The position numbers were made by a program, and so were the translations under genes. From Tritonibacter horizontis (GTDB taxonomy: Bacteria; Pseudomonadota; Alphaproteobacteria; Rhodobacterales; Rhodobacteraceae): a stretch of DNA of 64,000 nucleotides. Location of the stretch: positions 1 to 64,000 of the forward strand of contig NZ_LPUY01000017.1 in NCBI RefSeq assembly GCF_001518015.1, given 5' to 3'. Under the pieces are notes generated by a model. It had not been told where the DNA came from. It saw only the letters and a list, made by a program, of their open reading frames with translations, and did no database searches. Positions 49,877 to 62,918 of the stretch are shown here, piece by piece; position 1 is the stretch's first letter; the number at the start of each line of letters is the position of its first letter.

Positions 49877-51685
49877 TTGAGTAACGTTCTGCGTATCGGC
49901 GGCGCCTGCGGATATTGGGGCGACGCCGCGCATTCAACCCCGCAACTTTTGGCGACGGGCCAGATCGACGTTTTGGTCTATGACTACCTGGCCGAGATCA
50001 CCATGGCGGTGCTGGCGCGGGCGCGGGCCCGCGATGCGAAGGCCGGTTTCGTGCCGGATTTCCTGCATGACGCGTTGGTGCCGAACCTGAAACGCATCTC
50101 CGATCAGGGGGTCAAGGTGATCACCAATGCCGGCGGGGTCAATCCGGCGGCGCTGGCCACCGCGACGCGGGAGGTGATCAAACGGGCCGGGCTGTCACTG
50201 CGGGTGGCGGTCATCGCGGGTGACGATCTGATCACCCAGGCGCCGGAGTTGGTCAAGCGCGCGCCCATCGACATGTTCACCAAAGCTCCCTTTCCACAGG
50301 CCGAGGCGATCGTCAGCATCCATGCGGAAATCGGCGCCAAGGCCGTCGCGGCGGCGCTGGAAGAGGGGGCCGATATCGTCATTACCGGCCGCTGCGACGA
50401 AACCGCCCTGACGCTGGGGGCCGCCATCCACCGGTTCGGCTGGCATATCCGCGATCACAACTACCTTGCCGGTGGCGCGTTGGCGGGGCATGTGCTGTCG
50501 GGGAGCGTCCAGGCCACGGGCGGCAATTTCACCGATTGGGACGCCGTCACATCCGGCATCGACACGCTGGGCTACCCGATCGCCGAGATCGCCGGCGATG
50601 GCAGCTTTGTGCTGACAAAACCCGAAGGAACCGGTGGACTGGTCAGTCGCGGCACCGTCAGCGAGCAGATTCTCTGCGAGATCGACAATCCGCAGTCCTA
50701 TGTGGTGCCCGATGTGGTCTGCGATTTCTCCGAGGTCAAGGTGGAGCAGATCGGCCCCGACCGGGTGCAGGTGCGCGGCGCCCGTGGCAATCCCTCGCCC
50801 GACCACTACCGAACCTGCGTGAGTTGGGCCGACGGGTTCAAGGTCGGCCAGTATTTCCCCTTTTACGGTCAAGGGGCGGAGCAAAAGGCCGAGCGGTTCG
50901 CCGAGGCGGCCCTGGCCAAGGCCTCGGCCATTCTGGAGTCCCGTAAAATGCAGGGCTTCAGTCACAGCAGCGTTGAATTCCATGGCAGTGAAGCCCAATT
51001 CGGCGCGCTGCGGGCCACTGACGCCGTGCGCGATGTGGTCGTCAAAATCGCCGTGCGCCATGCCGAGGCCGCCGGGGCCATGACCTTTCTCAAGGCCGTG
51101 AATGGTCTTGCAATGGCCGCGCCGCCCGGACTGTGCGGCTATGCCGGGTCGGCGCCACGCCCGACGTCGGTGCTGTCGCTGTTTTCCTTTCTGATGCCCA
51201 AATCCGAGGTGCCGCTGACGGTCCAGGTCGGAACCGATTTTGAGCGCAAGCTGACCAGCCCCAGGACCGCCCTGCCAGAAGAGCCAAAGCCGCCGAAATC
51301 ACATGTTCCGCCGCGCGCGCCGATGTCGCGGGGGGCGGTGGTGTCGGTGCCGCTGTCGCGTCTGGCCTGGGCGCGCAGTGGCGATCTGGGGGATACCGTC
51401 AATCTCGGCGTGATCGCACGCCAGCCGGAGCAGCTGCCGTGGATCTGGGCCGGGCTCAGCATCGGACATCTGGAACGTGTCTTCGGGCACCTGATGGAAG
51501 AGGGCAGCATGACCCGCCATTTCGTTCCCGGCATGGCGGCCGTAAATATTACCCTGACAAAGGCGCTGGCCGGCGGGGGCACGTCCTCCCTGCGCAGTGA
51601 CCCGCAGGGCAGAGGGTTCGCGCAGCTGCTGCTTGCTGCGCCGATATCGGTGGATTGGTCGCTGCTGGGGAGTAGCGAGCAATGA
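49877..51685 (+). CDS. AtuA-family protein (acyclic terpene utilisation, DUF1446) with fused C-terminal domain
   Basis: The 602-residue protein starts VLRIGGACGYWGDAAHSTPQLLATGQIDVLVYDYLAEITMAVLARARARD, the AtuA/DUF1446 N-terminus, with VITNAGGVNP, IVITGRCDETALTLGAAIH and GYPIAEI. Its C-terminal 110 residues (SRLAWARSGDLGDTVNLGVIAR) form the AtuA-like ferredoxin-fold domain, often a separate protein. The biochemical role is unknown; in Pseudomonas, AtuA accompanies geranyl-CoA carboxylase. The start is a TTG with a weak ribosome site, chosen because the family N-terminus begins here. A carboxyltransferase and a biotin carboxylase follow. Confidence 0.85.
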   Translation: MSNVLRIGGACGYWGDAAHSTPQLLATGQIDVLVYDYLAEITMAVLARARARDAKAGFVPDFLHDALVPNLKRISDQGVKVITNAGGVNPAALATATREVIKRAGLSLRVAVIAGDDLITQAPELVKRAPIDMFTKAPFPQAEAIVSIHAEIGAKAVAAALEEGADIVITGRCDETALTLGAAIHRFGWHIRDHNYLAGGALAGHVLSGSVQATGGNFTDWDAVTSGIDTLGYPIAEIAGDGSFVLTKPEGTGGLVSRGTVSEQILCEIDNPQSYVVPDVVCDFSEVKVEQIGPDRVQVRGARGNPSPDHYRTCVSWADGFKVGQYFPFYGQGAEQKAERFAEAALAKASAILESRKMQGFSHSSVEFHGSEAQFGALRATDAVRDVVVKIAVRHAEAAGAMTFLKAVNGLAMAAPPGLCGYAGSAPRPTSVLSLFSFLMPKSEVPLTVQVGTDFERKLTSPRTALPEEPKPPKSHVPPRAPMSRGAVVSVPLSRLAWARSGDLGDTVNLGVIARQPEQLPWIWAGLSIGHLERVFGHLMEEGSMTRHFVPGMAAVNITLTKALAGGGTSSLRSDPQGRGFAQLLLAAPISVDWSLLGSSEQ

Positions 51686-51749: not shown

Positions 51750-53366
51750 ATGAATGCCGTCTACAGCAGGATTACCCCCACGGACACCGGCCTGTCGCAC
51801 AATCGTGCCGAGATGGAGGCGCTGATCGCCAGAATGCGCCGACTGGAGGCGCGGGCGGCGGCCAAAAGCGCAGAAAAACACCAGTTATATGAACGACGCG
51901 GCCAGCTCTCACCCCGGGACAGGCTGGCCGCGCTTCTGGATCCCGGGCTGCCGTTTCTCGAACTTTTCAACATGATTTCCTATCTGGTCGACGACCCGGA
52001 CCCGGCGACCTCGGTGCCGGGGGCGTCGATGATCGCCGGCATCGGGTTTGTCGCTGGGGTGCGGGTCATGGTCTGCGTCGATGATGCTGCCATCATGGGT
52101 GGCGCGCGAACGCGGAAAACGGCGGACAAGTTGCTGGGGCTTGTGACCATCGCAGGGCGGCAGAAACTGCCCTTTCTCTTTCTGATGGACAGCATCGGCA
52201 CGGACCCGATGCGCGACGGAGTGGAGAGCTGGGCCCGCGCCGGGGACTGTCTTGGCGCCTTTGCGCGGCTGTCGGCTGCGGGCGTTCCGGTGGTCACGGT
52301 CCTGCATGGTGTGGCAACGGCGGCAGAGGCCTGTCTGGCCGGGGGCGCGGATCATGTGATTGCCGTTCGTGGCCGGGGCCAGGCGATGCTGGCCGGGGCC
52401 GCCGCGGTTCAGGCGCTGACCGGCGAAGAGGTCGGCGGCGCGGCTCTGGGTGGTGCGCAGATGCATGCGGAGGTCACCGGGCTGGTCGATGATCTGGCCG
52501 CCAGCGATGCCGATGCGGTGGCCATCGCCCGCCGCTGGGTCGAGGGCCTGCACTGGCAGACCTGTACCGGCCCGCGTGCGCCTTATGCGGCGCCGGCCTA
52601 CCCGCCGGATGACATCCTGAATGTGGTCAGCGCGGATTACCGCAATCCGTTTGACATGACAGAGCTGGCGCTGCGGCTGGTGGATGGCGGATCCCTGCGG
52701 CGTTTCAAGCCGGAATACGGCATGGCCCTGCCGTGCTGGCAGGCGCGGATCATGGGGCATGATGTGGGCCTGCTTGGCAACAACGGACCGCTTGACCCGG
52801 AGGGGGGCCGCAAGGCCTGCCAGTTCCTGCAGGCCATGGAGCGCGCGGATACTCCGATGATTTTCCTCAACAATACAACAGGCACCGCGCTTGGCTCCCG
52901 GTCGGAGCGGGCGGGGATGATCCCGCAAGCCGCGCGTATGATACGGGCCGTGGCCACCCTGAGTGTGCCCAAAATCGCGCTTCTGGTCGGCGCCAGTTTC
53001 GGGGTGGGCAATAGTGGCATGGGGGGGCAGGGCGCGGGGGCGGATTTTCTGTTCTCCTGGCCGAATGCCCGCAGCGGCGCCCTGGCCAGCGGCCACGCGG
53101 CCCTGACCATGGAACAGGTCGCCCGCCGCACTGCCGCCCGCTGTGGCCGCGGCATTGACGAGGCGCGCCTTGGTCGCCAGCGCGACGCGGTGCTGCGCCA
53201 TTTTGACCGGCAGTCGGAGGCGTTCTTCACTTCCGGTCAGGGGTTGGACATGGGGATGATTGACCCGCGCGACAGCCGCCGGGTGATCGGGATCTGTCTG
53301 GACACCTGCCAGGAGGCGCGGGCGCGACAGCTGCGCGCTGGAGGGGACCGGAGTGTGCGGGCATGA
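51750..53366 (+). CDS. Acyl-CoA carboxylase carboxyltransferase (beta subunit) with altered N-domain loop
   Basis: The 538-residue protein has the crotonase-like double fold of carboxyltransferases such as geranyl- and methylcrotonyl-CoA carboxylase beta subunits. The C-domain is well kept (VPKIALLVGASFGVGNSGMGGQGAGADFLFSWPNARSG; IFLNNTTGTALG). In the N-domain, where relatives have DSGGA(R/N), this reads DSIGTDP (residues 147-153), so one oxyanion-loop glycine is changed. It has AAAGGAG upstream and overlaps the biotin carboxylase start by four bases (ATGA). The substrate is unknown. Confidence 0.87.
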   Translation: MNAVYSRITPTDTGLSHNRAEMEALIARMRRLEARAAAKSAEKHQLYERRGQLSPRDRLAALLDPGLPFLELFNMISYLVDDPDPATSVPGASMIAGIGFVAGVRVMVCVDDAAIMGGARTRKTADKLLGLVTIAGRQKLPFLFLMDSIGTDPMRDGVESWARAGDCLGAFARLSAAGVPVVTVLHGVATAAEACLAGGADHVIAVRGRGQAMLAGAAAVQALTGEEVGGAALGGAQMHAEVTGLVDDLAASDADAVAIARRWVEGLHWQTCTGPRAPYAAPAYPPDDILNVVSADYRNPFDMTELALRLVDGGSLRRFKPEYGMALPCWQARIMGHDVGLLGNNGPLDPEGGRKACQFLQAMERADTPMIFLNNTTGTALGSRSERAGMIPQAARMIRAVATLSVPKIALLVGASFGVGNSGMGGQGAGADFLFSWPNARSGALASGHAALTMEQVARRTAARCGRGIDEARLGRQRDAVLRHFDRQSEAFFTSGQGLDMGMIDPRDSRRVIGICLDTCQEARARQLRAGGDRSVRA

Positions 53367-55417
53367 CGAGACCGCCGAAAACCGGCCCTTTCACCCGGCT
53401 TCTGATCGCCAATCGGGGCGAGATCGCGCTGCGGATCCTCCGGTCGGCGCGGGCGATGGGGATCACATGCGTCACCGTCCATACCCGTGCCGACGCCGAT
53501 AGCCCGCATGTGCGGCTGGCGGATGACAGCCTGTGCATCGGCGAGGGGCCGCCGGCCGACAGCTACCTGTCGATTGCGGCGCTGATCGCGGCGGCCCGCA
53601 CCTGTGGGGCGCAGGCGATCCATCCCGGCTATGGTCTCCTGTCGGAGAACGCGGGCTTTGCCACCGCCTGCGACCGGGCGGAGCTGATTTTCATCGGCCC
53701 CTCTGCCGAGGCGATCGCCCGGATGGCCAACAAGTCGGGGGCCCGCCAGCATATGGCGGCGGCGGGTCTGCCCTGCGTGCCCGGCTATGACGGCGCCGAT
53801 CAGGCCCCCGGACGGCTGGCGGACGAAGCGGCCCGGATCGGCTACCCGGTGATGATCAAGGCCTCCAACGGCGGCGGTGGGCGGGGCATGCGACTGGCCG
53901 AAGGTCCCTATGCCTTTGACACCGCGCTCCGGCAGGCGCAGGCCGAGGCGGCGACGGTGTTCGGCTCCGGTCATGTCCTGCTGGAAAAGGCGCTGGACGA
54001 CCCGCGCCACGTCGAGGTGCAGATCCTCGCGGATGCCCATGGCACCCTGTTGCATCTGGGCGAGCGGGATTGCTCGGTGCAGCGCCGCCATCAAAAGGTG
54101 ATCGAGGAAGCCCCGGCGCCGGGGGTCACGCCGGCCCTGCGCGCCGAGATGGGCGCGGCCGCCATCACCGCCGCACGGTCGATCGGCTACGTCGGCGCGG
54201 GGACGGTGGAATTCCTGCTCGACAGCAGCGGCCGGTTTCATTTCATCGAGATGAACACCCGGCTGCAGGTGGAACATGCGGTGACGGAGGCGATCACCGG
54301 GGTCGATCTGGTGCAGGAACAGCTGCGCATCGCGCAGGGGTCGCCGCTGGGGCGCGCCCAGGACGACATCCGGTTTGAGGGCCACGCCATCGAGGCGCGT
54401 CTGTATGGCGAGGACCCGGCAGAGAATTTTGCGCCCCAGGCCGGTCGGTTGGCGCTATGGCAACCGGGCGAGGGGGTTCGCGTCGATGCAGGCGTCGAAA
54501 GCGGCCAGGTGCTTTCGACGCATTTCGAGCCGCTTCTGGCCAAGCTGATCGCCCATGGCCGCACCCGCGACGACGCCCGCCTGAGCCTGCGGCGTGCCCT
54601 GCAGCAGACGCTGGTCTTTGGGGTGACCTCCAACCGGGACATGCTGATCGACGCGCTGGGCCATCCGGCCTTTGCCAGTGCTGCGGTGCACACCGGATTT
54701 CTGGCAGAGCATTTCCCGCGGATCTCGGCCATGACCCTGTCTGCGGGCGAGATCGCCGTTGGCGCTGCCCTGTTCTACTGGCGCGCGGCAGAGGAGGCCG
54801 CCGCGCAGACCCCGCATGTGCCGCCTGAACTGCGGAGCTGGTCGAGCCAGGGCGCATTGAACCGGCAGCTGCGCCTGCGGGCGACCCAGGGCGTGCTGCC
54901 GCCCGGTCTGGCTGAGGCGGATGGGGCGGTGATCCTGCGGGTCGAGGATCAGGGGGACCAGCTGCAGATCCGGGTCGGGGTCCTGACCTTGACGCTGGCC
55001 CGCGACCGCGACGCAAAGGGTCAGATGCGCATCTTGCTCGATGGGGCGCCGGTGCGGCTGCGGGCGCAGGTGTTTGACGGCGCACAGCTGCATCTGGCGA
55101 CCGAACAGCGGATCTTTGCCCTGATGCTCTGTCCGAAGTCGTCGCCGGACCGGTCGCAGGTGGCGCGCGGCGAACTTCATGCCCCGCACAGCGGTCGCCT
55201 GCAGGAACTGCGCCGGGGTGTCGGCGATCTGGTGCAGGAGGGGGAGGTGCTGTTGGTGCTGCACGGGGTATCGGGGCCGCAGGACATTCGCGCGGGCCAG
55301 ACAGGGCGCATCGTGGCGCTGCCGGTGGTGGCGGGCGATCAGGTTCTTCGGGGTGATCTTCTGTGCCGGATCGTGGCCAGCGAAGGCGCGGTTGAGGCGA
55401 TCCCGGCCGCGGTGTAG
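53363..55417 (+). CDS. Biotin carboxylase with BCCP-like domain lacking the biotinyl lysine
   Basis: The 684-residue protein has an intact biotin carboxylase: LLIANRGEIALRILRSARAMG, IKASNGGGGRGMRLAEG (ATP lid), HVEVQILAD, ERDCSVQRRHQKVIEEAPAP and FIEMNTRLQVEHAVTE, with EARLYGEDP. A middle BT-type beta region follows (about 500-590). The C-terminal carrier domain (about 603-675) keeps GELHAPHSGRLQELRRGVGDLVQEGEVLLVLHG, but where the family has E-A-M-K-M it has H-G-V-S-G (634-638): serine S637 replaces the biotinyl lysine. It cannot be biotinylated there. This is the most unusual coding change seen in the window. Confidence 0.88.
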   Translation: MTRPPKTGPFTRLLIANRGEIALRILRSARAMGITCVTVHTRADADSPHVRLADDSLCIGEGPPADSYLSIAALIAAARTCGAQAIHPGYGLLSENAGFATACDRAELIFIGPSAEAIARMANKSGARQHMAAAGLPCVPGYDGADQAPGRLADEAARIGYPVMIKASNGGGGRGMRLAEGPYAFDTALRQAQAEAATVFGSGHVLLEKALDDPRHVEVQILADAHGTLLHLGERDCSVQRRHQKVIEEAPAPGVTPALRAEMGAAAITAARSIGYVGAGTVEFLLDSSGRFHFIEMNTRLQVEHAVTEAITGVDLVQEQLRIAQGSPLGRAQDDIRFEGHAIEARLYGEDPAENFAPQAGRLALWQPGEGVRVDAGVESGQVLSTHFEPLLAKLIAHGRTRDDARLSLRRALQQTLVFGVTSNRDMLIDALGHPAFASAAVHTGFLAEHFPRISAMTLSAGEIAVGAALFYWRAAEEAAAQTPHVPPELRSWSSQGALNRQLRLRATQGVLPPGLAEADGAVILRVEDQGDQLQIRVGVLTLTLARDRDAKGQMRILLDGAPVRLRAQVFDGAQLHLATEQRIFALMLCPKSSPDRSQVARGELHAPHSGRLQELRRGVGDLVQEGEVLLVLHGVSGPQDIRAGQTGRIVALPVVAGDQVLRGDLLCRIVASEGAVEAIPAAV

Positions 55418-55512
55418 CGCCACTTGCATCAGGGGTCCGGTTGGCCGACACGAGTTGCCAAGCGCAGGGCGGCTGCCGTAAGCAGGTCCGGACGCAGCAG
55501 CAGGAGACCGAA

Positions 55513-56163
55513 ATGGCCGGGCAGACCGAGACGCTGATTGCCTCGATCCTTGCGGATATCGACGCGGGCCGCCTGGCGCCGGGCCAGGAAATCGACGAGC
55601 CGACATTGGCCAGTCGCCACGGCGTGTCGCGCACACCGATCCGCGAGGCCTATATCCAGCTGGAGGCCACCGGCCTGATCCGCCGTCTGCCGCGTAAGGG
55701 GGCGGTGCTGTTCAAGCCGACGCTGGAGGAGTTCCTCGCCATTCAGGAGGTGCATGCGCAGCTGGAGGGGCAGGCGGCCGGGCTGGCCGCGCGCCGGATC
55801 TCTGCCGCGCTGCGCGCCCGACTGGAGGCCGCGACCCGGGCCTGCGAGAGCCACGCGCAGACCCATGGCGACGCGGACCCGGACGGCTACTACCAGTTGA
55901 ACCTGGTGTTTCACGAAACCGTGGCGCTGGGCGCGGCAAACCCGTTTCTGGTGGAGATGATCAAGACCAACGCGCGCAAGCTGATGGCCTATTACCGGGC
56001 GCGCTATCGCTATCCCGGTGCGATTGCGCAATCGGCGCTGGAGCATCGCGAGATTGCCGGGAAGATCTTTGCCCATGATCGCGCGGGGGCCGAGGCTGCC
56101 ATGCAGGCGCATGTGCTGTTCGATCAGGTGACGGTCATGGACCTGCTGGCGGCGCTGGCCTAG
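55513..56163 (+). CDS. GntR-family transcriptional regulator (FCD domain)
   Basis: The 216-residue protein has a GntR winged helix (PGQEIDEPTLASRHGVSRTPIREAYIQLEATGLIRRLPRKGAVLFKP) and a C-terminal helical FCD domain (HAQLEGQAAGLAARRISAALRARLEAATRACESHAQTHGD; EHREIAGKIFAHDRAGAEAAMQAHV), which typically binds a carboxylic acid ligand. The ATG at 55513 has GGAG seven bases upstream; an earlier TTG at 55441 is less likely. It lies 95 bases after the carboxylase genes in the same direction and probably controls them. Confidence 0.9.
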   Translation: MAGQTETLIASILADIDAGRLAPGQEIDEPTLASRHGVSRTPIREAYIQLEATGLIRRLPRKGAVLFKPTLEEFLAIQEVHAQLEGQAAGLAARRISAALRARLEAATRACESHAQTHGDADPDGYYQLNLVFHETVALGAANPFLVEMIKTNARKLMAYYRARYRYPGAIAQSALEHREIAGKIFAHDRAGAEAAMQAHVLFDQVTVMDLLAALA

Positions 56164-56870
56164 GCGCGCGCCGCGGCCTCGAAAAAACGCGCGATGGCCT
56201 CGGCCAGGGCGGGCTGGTCGGCGGCGGTGGACAGGCTGTCCTGCGCGCGGGCGTAGACCTCTGGCCCCATATGGCTGCGCAATTCCTCGGTCAGGGCACA
56301 GATGAAACCATGGTCCATCTCGGGGTGGTGCTGGGTGGTGGCGATATGGTCGCCAAGGGTAAACCCGGTGTTGATGCCGTCGCGTGTCATCAGCGGCACG
56401 GCGCCCTCGGGCAAATCGCGGACATATTCCACATGCGAGCCGTAGATTGCGACCTCATCCGGCAGGGCGCGGGCCCAGTCCGGCCGCGCGACAAGGTGAT
56501 TCCATGTCAGCCCATGCACCCAGCCGCCGGGCAGGTGGTCCACGGTTCCGCCCAAGGCGAGGGCAATCGCCTGATGCCCGAAACAGACCCCAAACAGCGG
56601 CAGCCGCGCGTCATGCATCTGCCGGATCAGCCCCATCAGCCGGTCGATCCAGGCCGCGCCGGAGCGGGTGGAGGCGGGGCTGCCGGTGATCATGACGCCA
56701 TCATAAGTCGTTATGTCTTCGGGAAAAATACCGCCCTTTGCCAAATACACGTCACAGGACCAGTCGGGGCGGGCCATCTGTACCAGCGTGGTGAATTTGG
56801 CGCCGTCCCTGGGATGGGCCTGGGCAAACGCGCTGTCGTCCGTGTTGGTCACGAGAATGGCAATCTGCAT
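56160..56870 (-). CDS. Class-I glutamine amidotransferase-like protein
   Basis: The 236-residue protein has the GATase-1 triad: cysteine C96 in LFGVCFGHQAIALALGG and H182 and E184 in ATTQHHPEMDHGF. Such stand-alone domains can hydrolyse glutamine or gamma-glutamyl amides. With the glutamine synthetase-like and P450 genes alongside, it may act like AtdA2/TdnT in aniline oxidation, cleaving gamma-glutamyl amide intermediates. The start MQIAILVTNTDD has GGAAG upstream. It is divergent from the P450 gene (73 bases apart) and shares its stop sequence with GntR (CTAG). Confidence 0.88.
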   Translation of the reverse strand: MQIAILVTNTDDSAFAQAHPRDGAKFTTLVQMARPDWSCDVYLAKGGIFPEDITTYDGVMITGSPASTRSGAAWIDRLMGLIRQMHDARLPLFGVCFGHQAIALALGGTVDHLPGGWVHGLTWNHLVARPDWARALPDEVAIYGSHVEYVRDLPEGAVPLMTRDGINTGFTLGDHIATTQHHPEMDHGFICALTEELRSHMGPEVYARAQDSLSTAADQPALAEAIARFFEAAARA

Positions 56871-56904
56871 CTTCGGGCTTCCCATATGCATATTTACGGT
56901 GCTT

Positions 56905-56918
56905 AATAGTATACACAC
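56905..56918. promoter_or_regulatory. Candidate GntR operator in the GATase/P450 divergent promoter
   Basis: A TAGTATACAC-type sequence with the GTATAC palindrome (56909-56914) lies midway between the two starts, which are 73 bases apart. Many FCD-type GntR proteins bind TNGTATACNA-like sites, so the neighbouring regulator may act here. Confidence 0.35.
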
Positions 56919-56943
56919 GAAGCAAGTCAAAGGAAGACCCGCG

Positions 56944-58203
56944 ATGACCATCTGGACCCCGACCGACAGCGGCCATGCGGATCTGTCCTGCCATGACACC
57001 TTTGCCGAAGGCGCGCCGCACAATACTTTTGCGCGGCTCAGACGCGAGGATCCGCTGCACTGGACCGACTATCCCGGCGGGCAGAATTTCTGGTCGGTGA
57101 CCCGCTATGACGACATCACCCGGATGAACAAGAACACCGAAGTGTTCTCCTCGGCGCAAGGCATCCGCATGGAGGATCAGACCTACGAGGAATACCTCGC
57201 GCGGCGTACCTTTCAGGAGACCGACCCGCCGGAGCATGCGCAGGTGCGGATGAAACTGCTCAAGGCGTTCTCCAAGACCACGATGGCGCAATACGAACAG
57301 GACATTCGCGATCTTTGCGCCGAGATCCTCGACCCCGTGCTGGAAAAAGGCACCTTTGACGCCACCAAGGAGATCGCCCGGCAATTGCCGATGCGGATGC
57401 TGGGTCGCGTCGTCGGCCTGCCGGATGCGGATCTGCCGTGGCTGGTGGAAAAGGGCGACGCGCTGATCGCCAATACCGACCCGGACTTCACCTCACATGT
57501 GCTCGACAAGATGGACACGGATGAATTTCGCCTGATGCCCTTCAACTCCCCAGCGGGGGCGGAATTGTACATCTATGCCAAGGAGTTGATGGAGGCGAAG
57601 GCGCGCGCAGGTGATACCTCTGGCGTGCTGAACATGATCCTGGCGCCGGCCCGCGACGGCTCCACCATCACCGAGTCGGAGTTTCGCAATTTCTTCTGCC
57701 TGCTGGTGGCGGCCGGCAATGACACCACGCGCTATTCCATCGCGGCGGGCATTCAGGCGATGTGCCATCAGCCGGAACTGCTGACGCAGATGCAGGCGGG
57801 CGGCGATATCTGGGAGACGGCAGCGGATGAGATCATCCGCTGGGCGACGCCTGCGCTTTATTTTCGGCGCACCGCGACGCGGGATGTCGAAATGCACGGC
57901 AAGCTGATCCGGGCCGGGGACAAGGTGCTCTACTGGTTCATCTCTGCCAATCGCGACGACAGCTATTTTGACGATCCGTTCCGGGTGAACCTGCGTCGCA
58001 GCCCGAACCGGCATCTGTCCTTTGGCCAGTTCGGCCCGCATGTCTGTCTTGGCATGTGGTTGGCGCGGCTGGAGGTGACGGTGTTGTTTCAGGAACTGGC
58101 CAAGCGGATTACCGCGATTGAACCGGCGGGAGAGCAGAAATTCCTGCGCTCGAACTTTGTCGGCGGCATCAAGGAATTGCCGGTGCGGGTACAGGCCGCG
58201 TAG
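56944..58203 (+). CDS. Cytochrome P450 monooxygenase
   Basis: The 419-residue soluble P450 has the I-helix AGNDTT (257-262), the ExxR motif EIIR (296-299) and the heme loop FGQFGPHVCLG with C368. The loop has one extra residue before the second glycine, as in CYP124/125/142-like enzymes (FGGTGAHYCIG). It is thus a typical class-I P450 acting on terpenoid, steroid or related substrates with external ferredoxin partners, which are not seen nearby. The ATG at 56944 has GGAAG six bases upstream. Confidence 0.92.
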   Translation: MTIWTPTDSGHADLSCHDTFAEGAPHNTFARLRREDPLHWTDYPGGQNFWSVTRYDDITRMNKNTEVFSSAQGIRMEDQTYEEYLARRTFQETDPPEHAQVRMKLLKAFSKTTMAQYEQDIRDLCAEILDPVLEKGTFDATKEIARQLPMRMLGRVVGLPDADLPWLVEKGDALIANTDPDFTSHVLDKMDTDEFRLMPFNSPAGAELYIYAKELMEAKARAGDTSGVLNMILAPARDGSTITESEFRNFFCLLVAAGNDTTRYSIAAGIQAMCHQPELLTQMQAGGDIWETAADEIIRWATPALYFRRTATRDVEMHGKLIRAGDKVLYWFISANRDDSYFDDPFRVNLRRSPNRHLSFGQFGPHVCLGMWLARLEVTVLFQELAKRITAIEPAGEQKFLRSNFVGGIKELPVRVQAA

Positions 58204-58206
58204 GCT

Positions 58207-58305
58207 CAACAGAAGACCCGTTCGGGCGGTTGCCCGGACAGCGCCCGACCTCCCGCACGGGAGGGCGCTTCGCACCCACCCGAGGTCGGCCGCTGCCCTC
58301 TGTTG
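58207..58305 (+). ncRNA. Candidate structured leader RNA (three-way junction) before the glutamine synthetase-like gene
   Basis: The 168-base gap between the P450 and glutamine synthetase-like genes can fold into three helices. P1 pairs CAACAGA (58207-58213) with TCTGTTG (58299-58305). P2 is a hairpin CGGGC-GGTT-GCCCG (58223-58236). P3 pairs CAGCG (58239-58243) and CCGACCTC (58245-58252) with GAGGTCGG (58282-58289) and CGCTG (58291-58295), with one C-C mismatch. It ends 66 bases before the ATG. It could be a riboswitch-like or attenuator element. Confidence 0.5.
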
Positions 58306-58371
58306 GGACCCAATCCGGGCCAAGACGCACGCCAAAGATGCGCAGGCCTGTCCAACAGGAAAGGAAACCAG

Positions 58372-59661
58372 ATGAAGACTCGGCTGCGCGCGCTTTTTTG
58401 CGACCACCTCAGCATCATGCGCGGAAAATACCTGCCGCACTCCAAGATCGGTGATGACGACACGCGGTTCTGCCGCTCGGTTTTTGGCACCCATTATGAC
58501 CGCGACCTGCTGGATGCGCCGGGGTCGATGGTGAAACAGGGACTGCCGGATATGGAGCTGCGCTGGCGCGGCGAGGAGATCCGCGACAGTTGGCATGCCT
58601 CGACCAAGATCGTGCTCGGGGATCTTTATGATGACGCCGGCGCGCCGCTGTCGCTCTGTCCGCGGGGGGCGCTGAAACGCGCGGTGGCCGCCTGGCAGGC
58701 CCGCGGACTCAGTCCCAAGATCGGGATCGAGCTGGAGGCCTATGCGCTGCAGCCCGACGACGACGGCCGTCTGGTGCCCTATGACACGCCGGGCGGGGTG
58801 GTCTATGGCACCGGTCCGTTTGCGGATCCGCTGCGGTTCAACGACCGGATCTGGGCAATGGCGGACGAAATGGGCTTCTCGCTCGATATGATCACAGCCG
58901 AGTTCGACACGCCGCAGTTTGAATACACGCTGACCTTTGACGATGCGGTGAAGGCGGTGGATGACATCGTGCTGTTTCGCCTGATGGCCCGCGAGATCGC
59001 GCTGGAATATGGCATCGTGCTGACCTTCATGCCGAAACCGGTGCCAGGGGGCGGTGGCTCTGGCATGCATGTGAATATGTCGTTCTCGGACGAAGGCGGC
59101 GGCAATGCGCTGTCCTCGGGGCCGCGCGGGGGGCCTGAGCACATGAACGATCTGGCGCGCGGCTGTCTGGCCGGTTTCCTGCATCATCACAAGGGTCTGG
59201 CCGGGTTGATCGCGCCCACCGCCAACAGCTACATGCGGCTGCAACCGGGCAGCCTGTCGGGCTTCTGGCAGAACTGGGGCGGCGATCATCGCAATGTCAC
59301 CACCCGGATCAGCTCTGAAGGGGGCGCCAAGGCACGGCTGGAACACCGGATGGCGGATGCGTCGTCGAACCCCTATACCACGGTGGCGGCGCTGTTGCAG
59401 GCCGCTCGGCTGGGGGTCGAGCAGGGGTATTCTCTGCCACCGATGGAGACCGGCGACGGGTTTGACCGCACCGATACCCGCGACAGCACCGCCATGACCC
59501 TGAAGGGGGCGGTTGCGGATCTGGAAAAGGACCGCGCCCTGAGCGAGGCGGTGGGTGCGGAGCTGGTCGCCAACCATGTGTTCATGAAGCAGAAAGAGGT
59601 CCGCAAGACCCGCGATCTGGAGGGCGATGCCCTGCGTGATTTCTACGTGCATTTTGTCTGA
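58372..59661 (+). CDS. Glutamine synthetase-like ligase (gamma-glutamyl-amide synthetase type)
   Basis: The 429-residue protein has the GS catalytic fold: GIELE (118-122), LDMITAEFDTPQFEYTL, GGGGSGMHVNMSFSD (GSGMHVN at 229-235, with N where canonical GS has H) and RLEHRMADASSNPYTTVAALLQ. The N-terminal GS-beta domain is short and altered. Such proteins often join glutamate to amines (PuuA, GlnA3, AtdA1) rather than to ammonia. The ATG at 58372 follows GGAAAGGAAA and a structured leader. Confidence 0.88.
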   Translation: MKTRLRALFCDHLSIMRGKYLPHSKIGDDDTRFCRSVFGTHYDRDLLDAPGSMVKQGLPDMELRWRGEEIRDSWHASTKIVLGDLYDDAGAPLSLCPRGALKRAVAAWQARGLSPKIGIELEAYALQPDDDGRLVPYDTPGGVVYGTGPFADPLRFNDRIWAMADEMGFSLDMITAEFDTPQFEYTLTFDDAVKAVDDIVLFRLMAREIALEYGIVLTFMPKPVPGGGGSGMHVNMSFSDEGGGNALSSGPRGGPEHMNDLARGCLAGFLHHHKGLAGLIAPTANSYMRLQPGSLSGFWQNWGGDHRNVTTRISSEGGAKARLEHRMADASSNPYTTVAALLQAARLGVEQGYSLPPMETGDGFDRTDTRDSTAMTLKGAVADLEKDRALSEAVGAELVANHVFMKQKEVRKTRDLEGDALRDFYVHFV

Positions 59662-59753
59662 GCGCACCCCGGGCGCGCCATCACCATGCTTGCCTTTTGT
59701 GGTGCCCCTGCGCCAAGGTGGCGGCCAGAACAACAGGCAAAATGGGCGGGACA

Positions 59754-60512
59754 ATGTCTGATCAGGCGAATGAAACGGTTGAGACACCGGTCGTGACACA
59801 GGAGGTTGCCGCCAATTGTCTTGGCGTCAAAGTGCCCCGGTCACGGTTTCTCAGCGAGAAGCGGATCGAGCGGATCAATGCCGCTCGCTATGAACGGCAC
59901 GAAATCAAGGGCGCGCTGCATGTCGTGCGCCCCGAAGATCGCGTGCTGGAGGCGGGGGCCGGATTGGGGATCGTCGGTGCGGTGATTGCCAGCAAGGCGG
60001 GGGCGCAAAAGGTGCTGTCGTTTGAGGCAAACCCGGAGTTGATCCCGGTGATCCGGGCGCTGCACGAGATGAACGACCTGGGCGACCGGATCGAGCTGCG
60101 CAATCAGGTGCTTTTTGCCGGCAAGGACAGGCCGACGACGATGACGTTTCACCTGCATAACTCCTATCTTGGCTCCTCGCTCCTGAATGACGGCAACCGT
60201 TCGGCGCGGGCGGTCGAGGTCGAGACGGTCGATGTTGCCGAGGTGATCGCAGCCTTCCAGCCGACGGTCCTGGTGATGGACATCGAAGGCGGCGAACTGG
60301 CGCTGCTGGAAGCGATGGATCTGGCCCCGTTCCGGGCAGTGGTGATCGAATTCCACCCGGATGCCTATGAGGTCGCGGGGATGCGGCGGTGCAAGACGAT
60401 CCTGCGCGAGGCGGGGTTCAAGAAGGTCGAGGAGGTGTCAAGCCGATCTGTCTGGACCTGTCTGCGCCCGGCGGAGACAGAGCCGTCAGAGCCGTCAGAG
60501 CCGTCAGCGTAA
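59754..60512 (+). CDS. FkbM-family methyltransferase
   Basis: The 252-residue protein has the SAM-binding motif VLEAGAGLGIVGAVIASKAGAQKVLSFEANPELI, LVMDIEGGELALLEAMDL and VVIEFHPDAYEV, as in FkbM-type O-methyltransferases. The target is unknown. I choose the ATG at 59754 (MSDQANE). The 3' end has three 9-bp tandem repeats that encode SEPSEPSEPS-like residues. It is 93 bases after the GS-like gene and may belong to the same transcript. Confidence 0.85.
   Translation: MSDQANETVETPVVTQEVAANCLGVKVPRSRFLSEKRIERINAARYERHEIKGALHVVRPEDRVLEAGAGLGIVGAVIASKAGAQKVLSFEANPELIPVIRALHEMNDLGDRIELRNQVLFAGKDRPTTMTFHLHNSYLGSSLLNDGNRSARAVEVETVDVAEVIAAFQPTVLVMDIEGGELALLEAMDLAPFRAVVIEFHPDAYEVAGMRRCKTILREAGFKKVEEVSSRSVWTCLRPAETEPSEPSEPSA
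60480..60506 (+). repeat. Three 9-bp tandem repeats at the FkbM 3' end
   Basis: GAGCCGTCA occurs three times in a row (60480-60506), just before the stop codon, and encodes a repeated Glu-Pro-Ser tail. Such in-frame repeats can vary in copy number between strains. Confidence 0.9.
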
Positions 60513-60653
60513 CCGTCGGCAGGGACGGTGGCAAACGGCGGTGGGCTTGTTTCACCGTCTGACCCTCCCCCGGGACGCAAGGCAAGGCCTGCGAAAAAGC
60601 CAGGCCCGTGCCACAGGCGCGACCGCGCCGCGCCAGCGGCGCCACCGACAGAT

Positions 60654-60728
60654 GCGGGCCCGAAGCCATAGGCTTCGGGCCCGCCATGGTATCTGGTGGC
60701 CTTCGGCCCCCTCGCGGGGGCCAAAGGC
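60654..60728. terminator. Two tandem hairpins between convergent genes
   Basis: A perfect 14-bp stem (60654-60667 with 60671-60684, three-base loop) is followed by a 13-bp stem with one mismatch (60699-60711 with 60716-60728). They lie between the FkbM gene (+) and the aminotransferase gene (-) and likely end both transcripts. Confidence 0.7.
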
Positions 60729-60748
60729 GGGCGCGTCAGGCCCCGAGG

Positions 60749-62104
60749 TCAGGAGACGGCGGCGAGGCCGGCATCAAGCGAAGACAGGATCTGATCGACA
60801 TCTGCTGCGGTCAGCACCAGGGGCGGTGACAGGATGATGTTGGGGCCGCTGACCCGCACCATGGTGCCGGCCTGATAGGTGACTTCCTGGATCGTCTTGA
60901 TGGTCTGCTTGTCGATGGGCGCTTTTGTGTTGCGGTCGCTCACCAGTTCCAGCGCCGACATCAGCCCATGGCCACCGCGCAGGTCACCGATCAGATCGTA
61001 GCGCGCCTGAAGCGCCTCGAGACCGGCATGAAGCTGCGTGCCGCGCGCCGCCGCATTGGTTGGCACATCGAGCCGCCGGGTCTCTGCCAGGCAGGCCAGC
61101 GCCGCCGCCGCCCCGACGGGATGGCCGGAATAGGTATAGCCATGGCCGATTGCCGCCTGGCCCGTCGTGTCCTTTTCAAACGTATCCACCAGCCGTTCCG
61201 AGATCATCACCGCACCAAAGGGGAAATAGCCGTTGGTGATGGCCTTGGCGGTGCACATCATGTCCGGCTGCACGTCCCAGTGGCGTGACCCGGTCCAGGA
61301 TCCGGTGCGACCAAAGGCGGTGATCACCTCATCGGCGATCAGCAGGATACCATGTCTGGCGCAGATCTCGGCCACGCCGGGCATGAAGCTTTCATGCGGT
61401 GGGATCACCCCGCCGGCGCCCAGGATCGGCTCCATGATGAAGGCGGCGATGGTGCTGGCCCCCTGAAAGGCAATCTCGTCCTCAAGGGCCGCCAGACAGA
61501 GCTGGGCCAGGCGCTCCGGGTCGGTTTCGTTGAAAGGATTGCGATAGGTATAGGGGGCGGGAATATGGTGACAGCCCGGCAGCAGCGGTTCGTAAGCGGT
61601 GCGAAAGTTGGCGTTGCCATTCACCGAGGCACCGCCGAAATGGGTGCCGTGGTAGCCCTTCTTGAGGCTGAGGTATTTCACCCGGCCCGGCGCGCCGCGC
61701 AGTTTGTGATACTGGCGGACCAGCCGCAGCGCCGTCTCGACCGAATCCGATCCGCCGGAGGTGAAGAACGCGCGGCTCAGCCCATCCGGGGCAAAGAAAT
61801 CCCGCAGCTCCTCGGCCAGCTGGATCACCTGGTCATTGGAGGTGCCCCGAAATGTCGAGTAATAGGGCAGGACCTCCAGCTGGGCCGCGATGGCATCCTT
61901 GACCGGCTGGCAGGAGAATCCGAGGTTGACGTTCCACAGTCCCCCGACAGCGTCGACGACCTCGTGCCCGTCCACATCGGTGATGCGCACGCCGGCAGCA
62001 CCGGTGACGATGGTGGGCGGGTTGGCCAGGCTGTCGCCCGGATGCGCCATCGGATGCCAGAGGCTGCGGGCATTGTGTTCTTTCAGGAAATTGGCGTCTT
62101 TCAT
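60749..62104 (-). CDS. Class-III aminotransferase (omega-amino acid:pyruvate type)
   Basis: The 451-residue PLP enzyme has the class-III motifs FFTSGGSDSVETALRLVRQYH, LLIADEVITAFGRTG (D258) and TAKAITNGYFPFGAV (PLP-lysine K287). It starts MKDANFLKEHNARSLWHPMAHPGD and is close to the beta-alanine/taurine and omega-amino acid transaminase subgroup. The ATG at 62102-62104 has AGGAG nine bases upstream. It follows the IclR gene on the same strand and is divergent from the TTT receptor. The substrate amine is unknown. Confidence 0.9.
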   Translation of the reverse strand: MKDANFLKEHNARSLWHPMAHPGDSLANPPTIVTGAAGVRITDVDGHEVVDAVGGLWNVNLGFSCQPVKDAIAAQLEVLPYYSTFRGTSNDQVIQLAEELRDFFAPDGLSRAFFTSGGSDSVETALRLVRQYHKLRGAPGRVKYLSLKKGYHGTHFGGASVNGNANFRTAYEPLLPGCHHIPAPYTYRNPFNETDPERLAQLCLAALEDEIAFQGASTIAAFIMEPILGAGGVIPPHESFMPGVAEICARHGILLIADEVITAFGRTGSWTGSRHWDVQPDMMCTAKAITNGYFPFGAVMISERLVDTFEKDTTGQAAIGHGYTYSGHPVGAAAALACLAETRRLDVPTNAAARGTQLHAGLEALQARYDLIGDLRGGHGLMSALELVSDRNTKAPIDKQTIKTIQEVTYQAGTMVRVSGPNIILSPPLVLTAADVDQILSSLDAGLAAVS

Positions 62105-62126
62105 CTCGGGGCTCCTGTTCGGGACG

Positions 62127-62918
62127 TCAGGGAAGGGGCATCGGCGGAAAGTCCGGCGGGCAGACGCCGCCGATCCGTTGGGTGAGGGCAAGACCCGCCG
62201 CACGCAGGGCGCGGGGTATGGCCTGTTTTTGGGTATCCGTCATGCGCGAGCTTGGCGCGGCCACCGCAAGCGCGCCCAGCACCGCGCGATCCGGACCAAA
62301 GATCGGCACCGCATGGGAATGCACCTCGGCCTCAAATCCGCCAACGGATTGGGCCATGCCGGTGCGGCGGGCGGCGTCAATCAGACGACGGATTGCGGCC
62401 GGATCGGTCTGGGTCTGTGGGGTGCGCGCTTCCAGCGGGCCGTCGAGGATCGCGGCGACAAAGCTGTCATCGGCAAATCCGAGCACAGCCAGACCAGAGG
62501 CGGTGCCGTGAAAGGTCAGCACCTCGGCATCCTCCATCATCACCTTGGTCGCATGCTGCGGCGCATAGGCATGTGACAGCGACGCCAGCTGGTCGCCCTG
62601 CAACAGCGACAAATGGGTGGTTTCGCCGGTTTCTTCCGACAGTTCCCGCAGGACGCGGCGCGAGGCCGACAGGATCGGCACGCTGGCTTCGCGCAGAGCC
62701 GCCAGACGCAAAACCTGCGGTCCAAGGCGATAGGAGCGCGCGCCATCGACCTGCTCGACGAATCCCACCGCCTGCAACTCTGTCATCAGCCGATAGACTG
62801 TCGCCTTGTTCATCCCCGACAGGCGTGTGAGGTCGCTCAGCCCGATCTCAAGCCGCCCGTGGTTGAAATAGCCAAGTAAGTTCAGTGCTTTGGACACAGT
62901 TCCCATGGGCGCGTGCAT
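62127..62918 (-). CDS. IclR-family transcriptional regulator
   Basis: The 263-residue protein has an N-terminal helix-turn-helix (SDLTRLSGMNKATVYRLMTELQAVGFVEQ) and an IclR effector domain (SEETGETTHLSLLQGDQLASLSHAYAPQ; GGFEAEVHSHAVPIFGPDRAVLGALAVAAPSSR). It probably responds to the amine or acid processed by the adjacent aminotransferase and TTT uptake system. The start is at 62918 or 62906. A probable operator lies between it and the TTT gene. Confidence 0.92.
   Translation of the reverse strand: MHAPMGTVSKALNLLGYFNHGRLEIGLSDLTRLSGMNKATVYRLMTELQAVGFVEQVDGARSYRLGPQVLRLAALREASVPILSASRRVLRELSEETGETTHLSLLQGDQLASLSHAYAPQHATKVMMEDAEVLTFHGTASGLAVLGFADDSFVAAILDGPLEARTPQTQTDPAAIRRLIDAARRTGMAQSVGGFEAEVHSHAVPIFGPDRAVLGALAVAAPSSRMTDTQKQAIPRALRAAGLALTQRIGGVCPPDFPPMPLP

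Follow-up and report, generated by a model that had tools for sequence, protein, structure and literature searches.

A carboxylase operon of Tritonibacter horizontis without its biotinylation site and conserved carboxyltransferase residues: a likely pseudo-carboxylase under purifying selection

A 64,000-nucleotide stretch of the Tritonibacter horizontis genome (hereafter the window; contig NZ_LPUY01000017.1, positions 1 to 64,000) contains three consecutive genes on the + strand that encode an AtuA-family protein, a carboxyltransferase (CT) and a biotin carboxylase (BC) fused to a carrier domain. The biotinylation site of the carrier domain is replaced, conserved active-site residues of the CT are lost and the family motifs of AtuA are altered. 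The reading favoured here, held with moderate confidence, is that the operon is a pseudo-carboxylase, that is, an alpha/beta pair resembling geranyl-CoA carboxylase (GCC) and 3-methylcrotonyl-CoA carboxylase (MCC) together with AtuA, in which carboxylation has been lost and which is kept by purifying selection. Its proteins probably have a non-carboxylating job. An earlier reading of this DNA, made from the sequence alone, had noticed the missing biotinyl lysine in an AtuA-carboxyltransferase-carboxylase cluster and listed a pseudo-enzyme among several explanations. The cluster is as that reading described it and among the explanations it offered, a pseudo-enzyme fits best; the parallel motif losses in CT and AtuA had gone unnoticed.

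The comparison covers other genomes (G numbers) and loci (L numbers). Forty-two operon loci were examined, and BC was obtained from 40 of them (L213 and L215 yielded none in the fetched stretch); AtuA was also present in the fetched stretch at 23 of the other loci with BC. With the window excluded, the alignments hold 40 BC, 45 CT (42 canonical) and 26 AtuA (24 canonical) homologues. In a family-wide search, 36 of 393 other genomes had a CT of the operon group at E <= 1e-108, and all 36 were fetched; in a class sample, 44 of 385 genomes matched and 28 loci were examined among the matches listed. Nine of 80 loci from a genome scan were also aligned, only two of which (L040 and L104) entered later counts. 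The features of the operon are as follows.

49877..51685, + strand: AtuA-family protein, 602 amino acids (PF07287 and PF23544), with altered family motifs
50390..50404, + strand: AtuA residues 172-176 of GRCxDSA, RCDET in the window (D175E and S176T, R172 kept; D and S each in 24/24 canonical homologues)
50498..50506, + strand: AtuA ECG residues 208-210, SGS in the window (E, C and G each in 24/24 canonical homologues)
51386..51388, + strand: AtuA K504 of SGDKGD, L in the window (K in 24/24 canonical homologues)
51750..53366, + strand: carboxyltransferase (beta type, GCC/MCC-like), 538 amino acids, predicted fold intact, conserved active-site residues lost
52200..52202, + strand: CT residue 151, A to T (A in 40 and V in 2 of 42 canonical homologues)
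52323..52334, + strand: CT residues 192-195, GGAY to AEAC (G192, G193 and Y195 each in 42/42 canonical homologues)
52884..52886, + strand: CT residue 379, Y/F to T (Y in 22 and F in 20 of 42)
53004..53015, + strand: CT residues 419-422, AGNY to VGNS (A419 and Y422 each in 42/42)
53363..55417, + strand: acyl-CoA carboxylase alpha subunit, 684 amino acids, with biotin carboxylase, middle (BT-like) region and carrier domain
53390..54712, + strand: ATP-grasp biotin carboxylase core, the 12 conserved residues examined kept (Pfam and alignment)
55163..55387, + strand: carrier domain, resembling a biotin carboxyl carrier protein (BCCP), with a predicted hairpin (strands 629-635 and 638-643 in the model)
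55262..55282, + strand: replaced biotinylation site, residues 634-640, HGVSGPQ instead of EAMKMQH

The ATG start codon of BC shares bases with the CT stop codon (ATGA). Pfam assigns AtuA and AtuA_ferredoxin to the first protein, Carboxyl_trans to the second, and Biotin_carb_N, CPSase_L_D2 and Biotin_carb_C plus a weak Biotin_lipoyl match to the third. GCC (AtuC/AtuF) and MCC have the same alpha/beta domains as the window pair, and a single cluster of Pseudomonas carries the genes for AtuA, AtuC and AtuF (PMC4847356). Unlike these enzymes, the window pair has no biotinylation motif and has changed CT positions, and judged by its residues it would not be expected to carboxylate. Complete AtuA-CT-BC operons in the family, such as those of G335, G380 and G001, have the gene order of the window but keep EAMKM, TAGGAY, GAGNY, GRCxDSA and SGDKGD, which the window does not.

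Residues 634-638 of the window BC read HGVSG (55262-55276), placing S637 at the position of the biotinyl lysine, as the sequence-only reading had stated; all 40 other aligned BC proteins have EAMKM. The motif is also present in eight of the nine aligned scan loci, the ninth (L078) having no carrier in the frame read. In the homologue from G001 (L120, same genus, 70% identity) the site is EAMKMQH, and DIRAG resumes directly after the changed patch in the window. Relative to G001, all seven codons of the patch carry an amino-acid change, whereas only 18 of the 67 remaining carrier-domain codons do, an excess beyond chance; eleven of its 21 bases differ and the reading frame is retained. Translating 55200-55340 in all six frames yields no AMKM, in line with the earlier claim that no alternative frame supplies it. 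The surrounding sequence had been called typical, which is mostly so, except that the window carrier domain has APH in place of APM, at a column that elsewhere holds M in 37, L in two and I in one of 40 proteins. The Biotin_lipoyl match scores 22.9 bits (cut-off 22.1) in the window versus 49.7 in the G001 homologue.

The ATP-grasp site of the alpha subunit is kept. Twelve BC residues that are identical in 40/40 homologues (K124, K166, H216, K245, E249, E296, N298, R300, Q302, V303, E304 and R346) are all kept in the window, and the earlier claim of an intact ATP-grasp core holds; their active-site role is assumed here from E. coli AccC. The predicted BC model (pLDDT 89.6) has the carrier hairpin in place, and the earlier description of a BCCP-like fold lacking its lysine is right. 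Superposed on experimental structures of single-domain biotin carboxylases, the BC core deviates mostly by 1.3-2.6 A. The best match of the subunit is MCC alpha, with 3u9s leading the sequence comparison and human MCC the fold comparison. The protein therefore belongs with the ATP-grasp biotin carboxylases by its core, but lacks the biotinyl lysine of the E-A/S-M-K motif.

The CT has changed in a similar way. G418, G420 and N421 are unchanged in the window, while the residues listed above depart from motifs that are otherwise nearly invariant: TAGGAY and GAGNY are each kept in 42 of the 45 other CTs, the three exceptions being lone CTs of congeners. The CTs from all 36 family genomes fetched are canonical, and TAGGAY occurs in all 30 CT copies from the 28 loci of the class sample (L265 and L280 repeat L123 and L124). 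Ala148, Gly191, Phe380 and Gly421 of Xanthomonas MCC beta are predicted as possible oxyanion-hole residues in PMC5991677; by our own position mapping, in which residue 151 is the counterpart of Ala148, three of these four are changed in the window CT. The PF01039 match still reaches 261.6 bits, and the model (pLDDT 89.3) has as its top fold match GCC beta 5ikl (TM 0.92/0.96, root-mean-square deviation 1.7), which is also the best sequence match. The CT fold is present, whereas the conserved N- and C-domain active-site glycine and oxyanion residues are not all kept. Two loci of the same class (L269 and L266, in G531 and G634) have two tandem CT copies of the operon group, with canonical motifs in both.

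In a biotin-dependent carboxylase the carrier biotin moves the carboxylate from BC to CT, whose sites lie about 80 A apart in GCC (PMC4673880). Because both the carrier lysine and the conserved CT positions are gone, an ordinary carboxylation cycle is not expected.

AtuA, too, is retained as a family member but not in its motifs. Its Pfam scores (420.2 for PF07287 and 72.4 for PF23544) are both over the cut-off, whereas the six otherwise invariant residues D175, S176, E208, C209, G210 and K504 are all changed in the window. The motifs are kept in 24 of the 26 other homologues, and the two exceptions are again congeners: G007, with R172, D175 and K504 changed, and G004, with R172, D175, E208, C209 and K504 changed.

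The sequence-only reading had also suggested a distinct class of AtuA-linked carboxylase. Such a class without biotin is not supported, since EAMKM is present in BC at all 23 other loci with AtuA alongside. A motif loss general to AtuA-linked carboxylases is likewise ruled out by the family alignments and the class sample; such enzymes in general look like ordinary biotin enzymes.

A sequencing or assembly artefact is scarcely credible. The window is known from a single assembly in 139 contigs, which would allow one, but eleven base differences within 21 bases leave the frame intact, related changes occur in five other genomes and the patch has no second genomic copy from which a faulty join could have arisen. 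Sequencing error is disfavoured because seven consecutive codons differ and parallel changes are found in the two neighbouring genes. Candidate origins of the patch were rejected as well. A 24-base stretch over it (up to three mismatches) has a single occurrence in the genome and a 17-base core a single one in the window, in both cases at the patch itself, and a search for flanking inverted repeats found none; a copy from elsewhere or a palindrome-templated origin is thus unsupported. A compensating pair of frameshifts was rejected by eye on the codon table; no frame reads AMKM.

Codon models (GY94 type, F3x4, custom scripts) indicate that the three genes are constrained. Pairwise dN/dS between the window and G001 is 0.099 for CT, 0.074 for BC and 0.087 for AtuA. 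On the window branch the values are 0.109, 0.101 and 0.134, significantly below 1 (likelihood-ratio test (LRT) statistics of 14.8, 20.3 and 49.0), and none lies significantly above background (LRT 2.3 for CT, 3.3 for BC and 0.8 for AtuA). For CT the window branch gives 0.146 when the alternative tree topology is used (LRT versus 1, 43.8). A free-ratio fit placed one boundary omega on a zero-length branch, a value without meaning. There is no stop or frameshift in any of the three genes. Neutral substitution was simulated until 11 of the 21 motif bases differed; over 60 runs the median number of stops acquired by the three genes together was 58 and the minimum 37. With dN/dS near 0.1 and no stops, plain neutral decay is disfavoured. 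According to the sequence-only reading, AMKM in all close homologues would mean a sequencing error or a recent decay. The homologues do all carry it, but neither consequence follows, given the seven changed codons, the parallel changes in neighbouring genes, dN/dS of about 0.1 and the absence of stops.

Related losses occur elsewhere in the genus. Opposite-strand genes, presumably paa genes judging from their sequence, precede the operon, and genes for GntR, GATase, cytochrome P450, a glutamine-synthetase-like protein and an FkbM-type methyltransferase lie downstream, plus one further gene, last in order, which we take to encode an aminotransferase. Among 18 genus genomes (the window's own included), the C-terminal BC region of the operon is found only in the window and in G001, whose complete operon occupies the same position, flanked by the paa genes and by GntR; the window holds the only complete altered operon among them.

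Lone CT relatives are present in G006, G012 and G015. They share 50, 47 and 47% of residues with the CT of the window and have strong Carboxyl_trans scores (246, 176 and 166 bits). The operon BC was not found in these genomes, although for G015, only 67% complete, this is weak evidence. These genes, on minus strands (L161:5671-7302, L162:6892-8574 and L163:3822-5492), lack the catalytic motifs. Residues 192, 193 and 195 are T, N and L in G006 and A, V and L in G012 and G015, compared with A, E and C in the window. Branch dN/dS is 0.035 for L161, 0.091 for L162 and 0.066 for L163 (LRT 31, 5.0 and 21), and the G012-G015 pair gives 0.066 (LRT versus 1, 340). Their neighbours are, as we read them, a ribulose-phosphate-epimerase-like (rpe-like) gene on one side and universal-stress-like and NifU-like genes on the other; no other gene of the operon cluster matched near the lone CTs in the stretches read.

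AtuA survives alone in two further congeners. In G007 it remains at the paa locus (L121:4561-6369, + strand), where precisely CT and BC are lacking from the interval up to the GntR gene, and in G004 it adjoins an FkbM gene (L122:912-2753, - strand); dN/dS is 0.137 (LRT 60) and 0.219 (LRT 35), respectively. The retention of a lone CT or a lone AtuA suggests that each part can serve without a carboxylation cycle.

A single ancestral loss is not claimed. Window and lone CTs group together with 98% support in the CT tree, from which one ancestral loss would follow. However, a constraint joining the window and G001 CTs is only weakly rejected (p-AU 0.045), the corresponding constraint for AtuA stands (p-AU 0.062), the branches are long, and an aceE tree places the lone-CT species with G004 apart from the window and G001 (88%; 100% without G004).

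Several observations weigh against a retained pseudo-carboxylase. Only one genome shows the carrier-motif loss, the window and the lone copies do not have the same altered residues, and a common origin for the lone CTs and that of the window has only weak support. No trace of the operon was found between the flanks, which are present, at the same locus in G005, G009, G010, G011 and G016, and the operon is therefore dispensable in the genus. For BC and CT the dN/dS of the window branch is roughly double the background value, a difference short of significance, and all of these ratios are rough because synonymous divergence is large. The operon is also farther from G001 than most of its flanks, fourfold sites included: fourfold-site values are 0.558-0.596 for the operon and 0.675-0.735 for PaaA, PaaC, PaaE, GntR, P450 and the glutamine-synthetase-like gene, with GATase at 0.562 and FkbM at 0.555. 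Vertical descent is consequently not assured; the operon may have split off earlier or been transferred, and its distance by itself does not justify speaking of acceleration.

The main rival is slow decay: carboxylation would have become useless in the genus, the active sites would have been the first to escape constraint, and the operon would be disappearing. The five traceless congeners, the lone AtuA of G007 and the slightly raised dN/dS of the window fit this account, as do departures of the window at highly conserved columns (34 of 153 in CT, 24 of 150 in AtuA and 11 of 142 in BC). A comparison asking whether window-specific changes fall in conserved columns more often than G001-specific ones, with L206 omitted from the reference set, was weak (Fisher p 0.04 for CT, 0.23 for BC and 0.16 for AtuA). 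The open, constrained frames of the window argue against slow decay, and so do the lone copies in five other genomes, which are also open and constrained. If the excess dN/dS reflected a fully neutral recent phase, about six stops would be expected by our arithmetic, and none is seen. Slow decay is accordingly judged unlikely.

Service by a BCCP of another operon in the same genome, which the sequence-only reading had offered, would account for the intact BC core but is very improbable. A Biotin_lipoyl search of the genome gave 12 matches, the window carrier domain itself falling short of E 0.001. Seven are biotinyl carriers: an AccB-type protein on contig C76, fused BC-BCCP proteins on C41, C59 and C60 (two), a free-standing carrier on C60 and a long frame on C16. 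Four are lipoyl domains by sequence (two on C17, one each on C42 and C82), and one, a 94-codon frame at a contig end (C42:35804), was not assigned to a type. No unpaired biotinyl carrier was found among the 12 matches, this frame left unassigned. The genome thus has other biotinyl carriers, one of them free-standing in a second AtuA cluster, but that carrier adjoins its own BC and CT. Moreover, the CT has lost conserved catalytic positions that are kept in 42 of 45 homologues, and donated carboxybiotin would not be used in the ordinary way; a carrier from elsewhere is not a sufficient explanation. The C60 region (own genome, G000; 66-103 kb, L127 and L128) contains three BC and three CT copies, and the free-standing carrier of its AtuA cluster reads ESMKLE.

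New chemistry is a further alternative. BC would activate bicarbonate with ATP or carboxylate the biotin of another carrier, and the remodelled CT (AEAC, VGNS) would carry out a biotin-independent acyl-CoA reaction. The 12 intact BC residues and the predicted CT fold are compatible with this, and Glu and Cys have been introduced into a motif that presumably lines the pocket, as we take the GGAY-type motif to do in relatives. Conversely, the lone CTs share no common residues at positions 192, 193 and 195, as loss predicts, and the operon BC was not found in their genomes. New chemistry therefore seems improbable.

Under the favoured pseudo-carboxylase reading, carboxylation would have been lost while the proteins may still assemble, with ATP presumably bound through the BC domain and acyl-CoA possibly through the CT shell. 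The products could act as a scaffold, a sensor or a dominant subunit, either in a complex or as separate proteins that would keep their fold and perhaps their ligand sites. The nearest functional analogue known would be plant BADC, BCCP relatives without the AMKL motif that are not biotinylated and act as a non-catalytic assembly subunit or inhibitor of acetyl-CoA carboxylase (PMC11926652). The carrier-like domain of the window also lacks the biotin lysine, a likeness that does not imply homology. BADC is a free carrier-like subunit on an active enzyme, whereas in the window the carrier forms one protein with an intact BC and its CT partner has changed as well. No bacterial pseudo-carboxyltransferase was found in the literature searched, as far as the sources were accessible (most subscription journals lay outside its scope).

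Downstream of the operon, the GntR - GATase - P450 - glutamine-synthetase-like - FkbM - aminotransferase block (window 55441-62203) adjoins paa also in congeners without AtuA-CT-BC, and within it GATase and FkbM have diverged more rapidly than the proteins beside them. The first approximately 76 codons of the listed P450 open reading frame overlap the opposite-strand GATase gene (window 56713-57023) and align more poorly with G001; the true P450 start is probably near 56941. Promoter and terminator scans of the window gave nothing informative, and the best matches in plasmid searches were below 60% identity.

The PF01039 and ATP-grasp matches would lead to an acyl-CoA carboxylase label for this operon despite the missing biotin site and CT positions, a caution for annotation. 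More tentatively, the genus as a whole may carry a GCC-derived pseudo-carboxylase family (AtuA, CT and BC-carrier) in which catalysis is lost and parts survive, selected for a new role such as acyl-CoA or ATP binding in regulation. The genus presents natural steps, from the canonical operon (G001) through the complete altered operon (window) and lone parts (G004, G006, G007, G012 and G015) to absence. If the favoured reading is true, a whole bacterial carboxylase operon would have been converted jointly to a non-enzyme under purifying selection, whereas BADC affects one carrier-like subunit.

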